From Olivibacter domesticus (GTDB lineage: Bacteria > Bacteroidota > Bacteroidia > Sphingobacteriales > Sphingobacteriaceae), in assembly GCF_900109575.1 (NCBI RefSeq), contig NZ_FOAF01000002.1:186001-250000 (forward strand): a stretch of DNA of 64,000 nucleotides, given 5' to 3'. Position numbers and translations under genes: made by a program. The notes beneath the pieces were generated by a model. The model was not told the DNA's origin. It was given only the letters and a program-made list of their open reading frames with translations, and made no database searches. Positions 4,606 through 7,484 of the stretch are shown here, one piece after another. Within the stretch, counting starts at the first letter, position 1. The number at the start of each line of letters is the position of its first letter.

Positions 4606-5724
4606 CTAAATGGATTTTTCAAACAAACGATAGCGCTTGTACTGTTTGCCGTTTATTTGCTCTATGGCATGGTTCATTAAATAGTTATCTTCGAGCATCC
4701 ACGAGCATTCTGCATATTTAATTTTCGAGCCCTCAGCATTCTTGATAAGGTTTCCGTACAAACACGCTTCAATACCTAATTTTCTGTAACCGTCTATAAC
4801 ACCTAATAATAAAACCCTTAGTCCAGTAACATGTTTAATCCCGAATAAAAGCTTCAATATTCCGGTAGGTAAAAGTCTTCCTCTTTTTATCTTAATCAAG
4901 ATTTGATTTATATCTGGTATTCCCAAAGCAAACCCTACCATCTTTTCTCCTTGTTCTGCAATAATGCAATATTTAGGATCAAGAATCATAGATAAATCCT
5001 TTGCCAAAAAATCAAACTCCTCATCTGTCATGGGCACAAAACCTAAGTTTTTGTCCCAAGCACTATTGTAAAGTTCTTTTATCTTAGGTATATCTTTTTT
5101 CAAATTTTTCTTATCGATTTTACGCAGTTTAATGTCACTTCGTTTTAATCGATTCTCTAAAGCATCCAAAAGTCTAACAGACCTATTATTTATATTTGAT
5201 CTATCTACAAGATAAGCTAATAAATCAGTTTGTTTTTTTAATCCGGTATTTAATAACAACCCTTCGTAATACGATTTGTTATAAGGCATCATAGCGACAG
5301 GAGGTAGCTCAAAACCTTTCACCAATAAACCACAAGTATCATTAGTGGAAAGGTTTATAGGCCCAACCATTTTATCAGCTCCTTTTCTTTTTAGCCAATC
5401 AATCGCTTTTTCCATTAAAGCGTTTACTACATCCTGATCGTCGATTGTATCAAAAAAGCCAAAGAATCCGTCTTTGGCATTTATAAACGCGTTGTGATTT
5501 GTATTGTAAATAGCAGCGATACGGCCAACCAGCTTGCTCCCCTCATAAGCTAAAAAGAGTTGAATATAAGAGTGATTATGAAACGGATGTTTACCCGGAG
5601 TTAACATGTCTCGTTGTGCTATAAACAGTTCAGGCACATAGTTTTTATCATCCTTGTATAAGTCATGAGGAAAATCTATAAAAGTTTTTAACTGACTTTT
5701 GGAGGATACTTCAACTACCTTCAT
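4606..5724 (-). CDS. GNAT-fold acyltransferase-like protein, candidate bacterial ceramide synthase
   Basis: A 372-residue soluble protein that begins MKVVEVSSKSQLKTFIDFP and has the look of the acyl-CoA N-acyltransferase (GNAT, YghO-like) family: an N-terminal block with PHDLYKDDKNYVPEL, a central LVGRIAAIYN strand pair, and a second half with MVGFALGIPDINQIL and YRKLGIEACLYGNLI. It lies 59 bases downstream of the serine palmitoyltransferase gene on the same strand and is probably in the same transcript. In Caulobacter a GNAT-like gene close to serine palmitoyltransferase encodes the bacterial ceramide synthase, which N-acylates the sphingoid base. By family and neighbourhood that is the best functional guess here; direct alignment to the Caulobacter protein was not possible. 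An unrelated N-acetyltransferase is the alternative. Confidence 0.65.
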   Translation of the reverse strand: MKVVEVSSKSQLKTFIDFPHDLYKDDKNYVPELFIAQRDMLTPGKHPFHNHSYIQLFLAYEGSKLVGRIAAIYNTNHNAFINAKDGFFGFFDTIDDQDVVNALMEKAIDWLKRKGADKMVGPINLSTNDTCGLLVKGFELPPVAMMPYNKSYYEGLLLNTGLKKQTDLLAYLVDRSNINNRSVRLLDALENRLKRSDIKLRKIDKKNLKKDIPKIKELYNSAWDKNLGFVPMTDEEFDFLAKDLSMILDPKYCIIAEQGEKMVGFALGIPDINQILIKIKRGRLLPTGILKLLFGIKHVTGLRVLLLGVIDGYRKLGIEACLYGNLIKNAEGSKIKYAECSWMLEDNYLMNHAIEQINGKQYKRYRLFEKSI

Positions 5725-5783
5725 CGTAAAATATATGCTATATGCGTCTTTTATTTACCTTAATTTGATCCCGTTTATGTTAA

Positions 5784-6989
5784 TCAAGCAATCTTCACAA
5801 ATTCAGTTGCCACTGTTTTACGATAAGCCTTTGTTAATTTGCTTACAGCTTCGTCAATCTGATCGAAAGTATGAGTGGCCATAAGTGAAAAACGAATTAA
5901 AGATTCTTGTGAAGCCACTGCTGGCGAAACTACCGGATTAACAAAAACACCTTCTTCTTGCAATTGCTTTGTAATTAGAAAAGTTGCGTCATTATCTCGT
6001 ATATAAACTGGCAAAATAGGGCTCTCTGTTTTACCTAAATCGAAACCACTATCGAGCAACTGTCTTTTTGCATATTCAGTATTTCTCCATAAGTTTTCAA
6101 TATGTTCCGGCTCAGATTTTATGATCTCTAAAGCAGCTAACACACTAGCGGCAGAACCCGGCGTCATACTTGCACTAAACATAAGCGAGCGTGCGCGGTG
6201 CTTTAAATACTCTATCGTATTGGCATCACTTGCTAAAAAGCCACCCAATGAAGCCAATGATTTACTAAACGTACCCATGATAACGTCTACATCGTCCGTT
6301 AAGCCAAAATGAGATGCCGTACCTGCACCTGAGACACCTATAACTCCTAGTCCATGCGCGTCGTCAACCATAACTGCTGCGTCAAATTCTTTGGCTATTT
6401 CGATCAATTCGGGAAGTTTTACAAAATCACCTTCCATGCTAAACACACCATCAACTGCTATTAATTTAACAGCATCTTCGGGCAACTGGCTGAGTTTATT
6501 TCTAAGATCAGCCATATTATTATGCTTATACTTAACTACTTTTGAAAAAGATAAGCGGCTACCATCAATAATGGAAGCATGATTACAATCATCCAAGATC
6601 AAATAGTCATTCCTTCCTGTAAGACAAGAAAGTGCTCCTAAGTTAGCCTGAAATCCAGTACTGAATAAAACGGCACCCTCTTTACCTACATAATCTGCTA
6701 ACTTGGCTTCTAACTCTTCATGAATGTCTAAGGTTCCGTTTAGGAATCTGGACCCTGCACAACCAGTTCCATATTTTGCTGTAGCGTTTTGAGCAGCTTC
6801 AATAATTTTGGGATGATTAGTTAGCCCTAAATATGAGTTTGAACCAAACATAAGGACCTTCTTCCCATTAATGATAACTTCTGTATCTTGTCCAGATTCA
6901 ATGGGTCTGAAATAAGGATAAAGACCTTTTTCTTTTATCACCGCCGCATCTTTAAAATCTGCTATACGCTTGTCAAAATTTCTACTCAT
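5784..6989 (-). CDS. spt: Serine palmitoyltransferase (PLP-dependent, first step of sphingolipid synthesis)
   Basis: A 401-residue alpha-oxoamine synthase. It condenses L-serine with palmitoyl-CoA to 3-ketodihydrosphingosine in the cytoplasm. PLP-site residues are visible: H138 (NHASIIDG) stacking on the cofactor, D209-D210-A-H212, and the Schiff-base lysine K243 in [11 protein letters not shown]. Blocks such as [34 protein letters not shown] and [24 protein letters not shown] agree with my memory of the well-studied Sphingobacterium multivorum enzyme, which favours this over glycine C-acetyltransferase or 8-amino-7-oxononanoate synthase. No bio or tdh genes are near. A MarR gene lies 45 bases upstream and the GNAT-like gene 59 bases downstream, all on the minus strand, suggesting a three-gene operon. 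Confidence 0.92.
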
Positions 6990-7034
6990 CTAATTAAAAT
7001 TTAAAACCCGCTGGTTCTTTTCTTTCTAATATGG

Positions 7035-7484
7035 TTATATTATATGTATATTTTGCAGATTATTACCAATTGATTTGATAACCTGCATAAAACGATCATG
7101 CTCTGGGCTTTTTAGGCTATTAAATAAAACCTTTTCAAGATTTACTATTTTATCTTTAATAAGTCTCGCCAGGACTCTCCCTTTTGGGGTAAGCATGACA
7201 CAGTTTTTCCTTTTATCAGCTATATCTGTAGTTACTCGTACCAAGTCTTCTTTTTCTAAATTAGAAATGGTTCTTAATACCGAAGATTTATCTCTACCAA
7301 TTTCATCAGCTATTTGTTGTTGCGGAAGCCCTTCTTCTGGAATACTAAATAAAACAGGTAGCTGTTCAATTCTTACATCAATACCCTGAGCCGACAAATA
7401 TTGGTTTGCTTTATTGCGCAACAGTTTGCTCAGATTATCGAGGTGGAATATTGCTAACTCATCATTATTATTTACCTGATTCAT
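7035..7484 (-). CDS. MarR family transcriptional regulator
   Basis: A 149-residue winged-helix protein. The recognition region LPQQQIADEIGRDKSSVLRTISNLEKEDLV (residues about 53-82) and the wing VRVTTDIADKRKNCVMLTPKGR are typical of MarR, flanked by dimerisation helices. MarR dimers usually bind palindromes at their own promoter and respond to small phenolic or lipid-like ligands. It is the first gene of the probable MarR-spt-GNAT operon, with 45 bases to spt, so control of sphingolipid synthesis is plausible but not shown. The intergenic region upstream is long and AT-rich, leaving room for an operator; I could not identify a clear one. Confidence 0.85.
   Translation of the reverse strand: MNQVNNNDELAIFHLDNLSKLLRNKANQYLSAQGIDVRIEQLPVLFSIPEEGLPQQQIADEIGRDKSSVLRTISNLEKEDLVRVTTDIADKRKNCVMLTPKGRVLARLIKDKIVNLEKVLFNSLKSPEHDRFMQVIKSIGNNLQNIHII

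Follow-up and report, generated by a model that had tools for sequence, protein, structure and literature searches.

A sphingolipid biosynthesis locus of Olivibacter domesticus with a putative GNAT-type ceramide synthase, a MarR-type regulator gene and no recognisable CerR

Introduction

In a 64,000-nucleotide stretch of the Olivibacter domesticus genome (contig NZ_FOAF01000002.1, positions 186,001 to 250,000; hereafter the window), a MarR-type regulator gene (marR), a serine palmitoyltransferase (SPT) gene (spt) and a gene for a 372-residue GNAT-fold protein follow one another. This locus raises the question of whether the GNAT protein is the ceramide synthase of the Sphingobacteriaceae and, if so, which enzymes complete the pathway and whether the regulator controls it. 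With a probability of about 0.86, the locus would be a sphingolipid biosynthesis operon comprising SPT, a GNAT ceramide synthase, downstream lipid-modification genes and a probable MarR switch, with the reductase encoded elsewhere. In the proposed pathway, SPT would form 3-ketosphinganine by condensation of serine and an acyl thioester, and the tandem-GNAT protein would N-acylate the long-chain base, in a substrate order that is likewise presumed. The ketone would be reduced by an enzyme encoded elsewhere, neither an ortholog of the relatives' CerR nor a KdsR above the NCBI cut-off, hydroxylation of the lipid and addition of a head group would probably fall to the products of the downstream genes, and MarR would probably act as an autoregulating switch at a conserved block in front of its own gene. 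Gene identities, homology, co-occurrence, adjacency, gene fusion and the predicted fold are read from sequence in this scheme.

Serine palmitoyltransferase

The window SPT scores 732 bits against the NCBIfam model NF047600 (SerpalmtaseCFB), over the curated Bacteroidota cut-off of 640, and it is nearest to the solved SPTs 8guh and 3a2b (642 bits), so that the strong spt call of the initial annotation is borne out. The solved cysteate-C-fatty acyltransferase 28eh, at 235 bits compared to 642, was not its nearest solved relative, which makes a sulfonolipid locus unlikely. The SPTs of Bacteroidales sphingolipid loci are 62-68% identical to that of the window, and BT_0870 of Bacteroides is given as the known SPT in PMC9278070.

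The GNAT protein as a ceramide synthase

Homology, tree, co-occurrence, adjacency and gene fusions together give good support to the reading of the 372-residue protein as a ceramide synthase, and it is very probably the ceramide synthase of the Sphingobacteriaceae, belonging to the CC_1154/YghO family, as had been proposed from its position beside spt. Homologues lie in the ceramide clusters of Proteobacteria, where the members opened (Roseomonas, Sphingomonas, Escherichia coli and Pseudomonas) are 30.7-36.7% identical over 99-100% of the protein, with E. coli YghO at 36.7% over the whole window protein. The likeness to CC_1154 (CerS/bCerS) of Caulobacter crescentus and to YghO consists in full-length homology, membership of the same spt-associated group and the same tandem-GNAT length, and PMC9386255 enters CC_1154 and yghO together as one N-acyltransferase of dihydroceramide synthesis, "aca".

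A tblastn search of plasmid records gave 44 records matching the GNAT protein, each covering at least 80% of the query, and those opened label it "hypothetical protein", "(GNAT family) N-acetyltransferase" or "protein YghO". Rubrobacter and Streptomyces plasmids show the order SPT, GNAT, NAD-dependent oxidoreductase or epimerase; Roseomonas and Sphingomonas are laid out as acp-spt ... lptF-lptG ... GNAT; the GNAT gene of E. coli and Pseudomonas is adjoined by genes for a fatty acyl-AMP ligase, an epimerase, an acyl carrier protein and SPT. An Aureispira plasmid record is also among those opened, as are Bacteroides finegoldii and Vescimonas, where the homologue has no adjoining SPT gene (in B. 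finegoldii, GNAT and SPT lie on separate records). In contrast to Olivibacter, an acyl carrier protein gene accompanies cerS in the Proteobacteria examined, joined in E. coli and Pseudomonas by a fatty acyl-AMP ligase gene. Of 5426 complete E. coli genomes, 4022 contain a match to 80% or more of the E. coli stretch (L274:2525-8122) that bears spt, acp, yghO and the epimerase and fatty acyl-AMP ligase genes; PMC9386255 already describes this gene set for strain BL21.

Co-occurrence was followed in 61 Sphingobacteriaceae genomes, where GNAT proteins of at least 485 bits were called type A. This type is present in exactly the 19 genomes that carry an SPT over the cut-off, and the agreement extends to the mixed genera g4 and g14. 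In the other 42, the best GNAT match reaches 153 bits, and two have no match at all. Of the 18 family loci besides the window's own, 17 have the GNAT gene immediately after spt, and one genome (G050) has its type-A gene on another contig. The wider comparison used named loci, the best 80 of 555 relatives, a set biased to close kin in which type A means at least 40% identity; Olivibacter sitiensis (DSM 17696, locus L140) is counted both here and in the family set. In these 80 loci, the gene after spt encodes a type-A GNAT in 57, a KdsR-like SDR in 14, a more distant GNAT in six and another protein in two, and once the contig ends. The distance between spt and cerS in relatives has a median of 4 bases (range -50 to 111). 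In addition, SPT and GNAT are fused in a single reading frame in three genomes of two families elsewhere in the phylum, among the matches listed in 296 genomes; one of these genomes (G219) has, besides the fusion, another GNAT of that group as a gene of its own.

A tree of 68 hand-picked rows, covering 10 of the 18 family loci and representatives of the rest, places the window protein in a 44-row group (support 95/84) together with SPT-adjacent, fused and proteobacterial rows and nine others. The two GNAT paralogues of the window genome form part of a separate 10-row group (100/100), and the Bacteroidales-type GNAT rows fall in a third group of 14 rows (100/100). The spt-linked group, the fusions and the exact co-occurrence with SPT offer a naming rule for this GNAT family.

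Structure prediction with AlphaFold2 from 38 rows gave a confident model (pLDDT 91.3, pTM 0.89), whose best fold matches are tandem-GNAT enzymes: 7q3a (Z 24.0, root-mean-square deviation 3.4, 303 aligned residues), followed by the glucosamine N-acetyltransferase 5kga (Z 23.6) and mycothiol synthase 2c27 (Z 21.4), with the N-myristoyltransferase 6pau lower (Z 15.8, deviation 5.3). A phmmer search of the protein against PDB sequences gave nothing useful. A C-terminal R/Q-x-x-G stretch, which we take to be the GNAT CoA-binding motif, is found in 13 of 13 non-proteobacterial type-A rows (RKLG in the window) and in none of the four proteobacterial rows, a difference that may reflect a different acyl donor.

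Several points weigh against the ceramide-synthase reading. The top structural matches of the model are acetyltransferases, so the predicted fold does not point to a fatty-acyl donor; the link to CC_1154 runs through YghO, synteny and one paper, consulted as an excerpt; CerR, which lies beside spt-cerS in most relatives, is not found in Olivibacter; and in eight of 19 usable phylum loci (L089-L092, L094-L096 and L102), a type-A gene has no adjoining spt within the locus, although these rows fall inside the 44-row group. The adjacency of spt and the GNAT gene across Bacteroidetes, to which the initial annotation had looked for confirmation, is seen in 57 of the 80 named loci and is lacking in these eight. 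They would also suit the alternative that the protein N-acylates another amino lipid, of the glycine, ornithine or sulfonolipid type, and simply sits beside spt. The Pfam name of the protein is the general one, as it matches solely PF00583 GNAT (21.6 bits, cut-off 20.7), an NCBIfam scan assigned it to no family, and none of five scanned members (window, Roseomonas, Sphingomonas, E. coli YghO and a Bacteroides relative) reaches an NCBIfam cut-off. Moreover, GNAT matches not of type A (about 94-156 bits) occur in 55 of the 61 family genomes, 40 of them without an SPT over the cut-off, indicating that the superfamily has other jobs. However, the window protein lies inside the SPT-linked tree group with its own paralogues outside, type A tracks SPT exactly within the family, fusions with SPT exist, and the window SPT is far from the solved cysteate enzyme, all of which renders an amino-lipid function very improbable and argues for the ceramide synthase.

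In Bacteroidales loci, spt is often followed by the more distant GNAT type or by the KdsR-like SDR counted above. This distinct GNAT lineage stands after spt in L197, L200, L206, L210, L213 and L216 and away from it in Bacteroides finegoldii (L110:4995-6131), and it is possibly a second ceramide synthase lineage.

The ketone reductase

Many Mucilaginibacter, Pedobacter, Sphingobacterium, Dyadobacter and Pontibacter genomes have spt-cerS-cerR clusters with the same spt-cerS pair, overlapping or close, followed by varying combinations of DUF5686, GtrA, CDP-alcohol transferase and hydroxylase genes. Downstream genes were counted in the 41 named loci where a GNAT gene, distant or type A, follows spt and 6.5 kb of downstream sequence is available; an epimerase-family gene is present in 37 of them and, among family loci of this kind, in 10 of 16. 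According to PMC11334938, spt, bCerS and CerR often lie in one cluster, sphingolipid-producing Bacteroidota being an exception for which it cites Stankeviciute et al. 2021; given the loci described here, that exception fails for Sphingobacteriaceae and their kin. Olivibacter differs from these clusters by marR in front, by the lack of cerR and by an INO1-like gene that lies off the locus and is present in two of the five genomes of the genus. The Mucilaginibacter loci L152 and L157 are likewise without cerR at the locus.

Reductases were sought in 20 spt-bearing genomes, in which the CerR scores are bimodal: 12 genomes reach at least 284.7 bits and eight at most 71.8. The low group consists of all five Olivibacter genomes, including that of the window, and of G019, G036 and G051. 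As the search found no CerR ortholog in the window genome, with a best match of 38 bits, the known, Caulobacter-type ceramide pathway is incomplete there. In a tree whose deep forks are open, the CerR proteins of the relatives form a clade of 12 rows (support 98/99) that excludes the four best epimerase candidates of the genome itself, all of them long-branched, and a tblastn search of the 208 bases that follow cerS for a remnant of cerR gave a chance match alone (E = 15). Similarly, no genome of the 20 passes the 400-bit cut-off of the KdsR model NF049977, the window genome reaching 188.6 bits. With neither a CerR ortholog nor a KdsR over the cut-off, the ketone-reducing step is left without an assigned enzyme.

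It could be argued that nothing is missing, because a much diverged CerR already present in the genome, such as the product of G000:C21:38138-38935, reduces the ketone. That protein scores 105.9 bits against the HpnA model, close to the 102.4 bits of the CerR of L143, and the unsettled deep part of the epimerase tree would leave room for distant kinship. Nevertheless, it is 24.5% identical to the CerR of L048, its branch in the tree is very long and lies apart from the CerR clade, and the CerR scores of the 20 genomes are bimodal; such a hidden CerR appears unlikely. Tentatively, and at somewhat less than an even chance, Olivibacter may instead use a third ceramide route, with SPT, a GNAT ceramide synthase, a dedicated MarR switch and either a reductase that is neither CerR nor KdsR or 3-keto-ceramides left unreduced. 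The cerR-less state of G019, G036 and G051, outside the genus, would then suggest that the reductase was replaced or lost more than once.

A KdsR-type SDR was considered as the replacement and rejected. A profile (A1) built from 12 of 14 spt-adjacent SDRs gave 156-237 bits in the eight cerR-less genomes and from no match at E 1e-30 (G016) to 301 bits in the twelve cerR-bearing ones, the two best scorers (G014 and G053) being cerR-bearing; together with NF049977, it showed no clear complementarity with cerR.

A genus with spt and cerS and no recognisable cerR is a testable case for the order of steps in bacterial ceramide synthesis, and the missing ketoreductase is more interesting than the regulatory question. 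Separately, a classical SDR gene directly follows spt in the 14 named loci L198, L199, L201, L202, L204, L205, L207, L208, L209, L211, L212, L215, L217 and L218, which are candidate spt-kdsR pairs; the one SDR scanned (L198) has its best match to NF049977, at 323 bits, under the cut-off.

The MarR regulator and the upstream region

The regulator, a winged-helix protein, passes the Pfam cut-offs of MarR_2 (PF12802, 30.3 bits, cut-off 27) and MarR (PF01047, 28.8 bits, cut-off 24.6), and control of the spt unit by this protein is plausible. Its gene lies directly upstream of spt in five of five Olivibacter genomes, the four others encoding proteins 59-97% identical to it, and the order marR-spt-GNAT recurs in these four (L040, L041, L042 and L222), showing that it is not due to chance. 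The first 117 bases or so before marR are conserved: in 30-column alignment segments, the window sequence, G349, G015 and G052 are 86-93% identical from column 421 on (78% in the segment starting at 406), compared to 28-60% in columns 76-420 of the intergenic region (with one segment at 71%). A second conserved stretch, 66-81% identical, lies beside the AraC-family gene further upstream. The block holds an imperfect direct repeat, GTGATAT at 7528-7534 and TTGATAT at 7506-7512, spaced 22 bases apart.

On the other hand, marR may be a local or autoregulated neighbour that does not regulate spt, an alternative of real weight although short of an even chance. Of the 76 named loci whose upstream sequence is long enough, one has a MarR gene before spt, that of Olivibacter, so that the arrangement is restricted to the genus, apart from a MarR relative (28% identity) at the same place in L088; the Sphingobacterium loci examined gave no MarR match upstream of spt, and relatives run the same operon without marR. 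A search of the block for an operator palindrome gave none that is clear, and the best palindromes stand some 270 bases or further upstream of marR. Conservation of the block is weak in O. sitiensis, where it shares 43-60% identity with the window and carries the pair TTGATAT/TTGATAG spaced 24 bases. Against this reading stand the shared strand and short gap between marR and spt, the preservation of marR in all five genomes, even in O. sitiensis (L041/L140), where the AraC gene is absent at this place, and the block itself, conserved in four genomes. Control by MarR would provide a handle on the timing of sphingolipid production.

Inducible sphingolipid synthesis, described initially as not generally assumed in these bacteria, has been raised before: in PMC12724326, spt of Sphingobacterium detergens is up 3.98-fold with polymyxin B in R2A medium and lowered in LB and BHI. 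Among the papers listed by literature searches, judged by title and opening of the abstract, none dealt with SPT-CerS fusions, with the Olivibacter locus or with control of spt by MarR, which is a weak test of the published record. In 11 of the 76 named loci, an AraC-type gene is found upstream of spt; eight of these genes are divergent, and one is separated from spt by the smpB-like gene. A 151-residue gene upstream of spt in Sphingobacterium was considered as a divergent regulator and dropped, since its sequence reads as that of a presumed SmpB.

Locus layout and downstream genes

The open reading frame coordinates (Table 1) confirm that marR, spt and the GNAT gene stand head to tail on the minus strand with gaps of 45 and 59 bases. 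The description of a compact three-gene unit was exact in order and spacing, and it overlooked both the further genes in the run and the lack of CerR. The GNAT gene is followed after 208 bases by the DUF5686 gene, and a search of that gap on the minus strand revealed no terminator-like site. The unit is thus probably longer and runs on into the DUF5686, hydroxylase and CDP-alcohol transferase genes, which would be co-transcribed; beyond the window edge (locus L277), a GtrA-like gene and a gene of 196 residues come next. The locus is a new operon variant built on a known enzyme family, in which this extension and the absence of CerR are newly noted.

Table 1. Genes and sites of the Olivibacter domesticus locus (window positions), with fused and paralogous proteins from other loci
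Feature	Position	Strand	Remarks
AraC-family regulator, upstream	7981-8874	minus	PF12833, 63.2 bits
Conserved block before marR, candidate promoter/operator	7485-7601	minus	cross-genome alignment
marR	7035-7484	minus	149 residues; first gene of the unit
spt, serine palmitoyltransferase	5784-6989	minus	401 residues
cerS, tandem-GNAT N-acyltransferase, bacterial ceramide synthase family	4606-5724	minus	372 residues
DUF5686 and CarboxypepD_reg-like domain	1818-4397	minus	PF18939, 204 bits
Fatty-acid hydroxylase superfamily	1097-1729	minus	PF04116, 72.3 bits; in the cluster of several relatives
CDP-alcohol phosphatidyltransferase	248-994	minus	PF01066, 32.2 bits; recurs in spt clusters of relatives
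SPT-ceramide synthase fusion	L083:2851-5313		820 residues
SPT-ceramide synthase fusion	L084:4091-6583		830 residues
SPT-ceramide synthase fusion	L085:5703-8090		795 residues
GNAT paralogue, window genome	L220:6909-8021		370 residues
GNAT paralogue, window genome	L221:6387-7556		389 residues

Of the 41 named loci, 26 have a DUF5686 gene no further than 6.5 kb downstream of spt, whereas O. sitiensis (L041) lacks it at this place. The DUF5686 protein is a probable outer-membrane barrel and a candidate for handling sphingolipids at the outer membrane. The protein of the fatty-acid hydroxylase superfamily is a candidate sphingolipid hydroxylase, and the CDP-alcohol phosphatidyltransferase, with weak matches to NF040950 and NF052561 (PIPSynBT1523) that are both far under the cut-off, is a candidate ceramide head-group transferase.

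A gene of 442 residues downstream of cerS, considered as a MATE protein, was dropped because it reads as an inositol-phosphate synthase; the labels INO1 and PgpA are presumptive. An INO1-like gene lies within the spt cluster in 27 of the 41 named loci. It was not found in three of the Olivibacter genomes (at most 42 bits), and in the window genome (L224, G000:C12:688291-689604) and in G052 it is unlinked to spt. Head groups may therefore differ within the genus.

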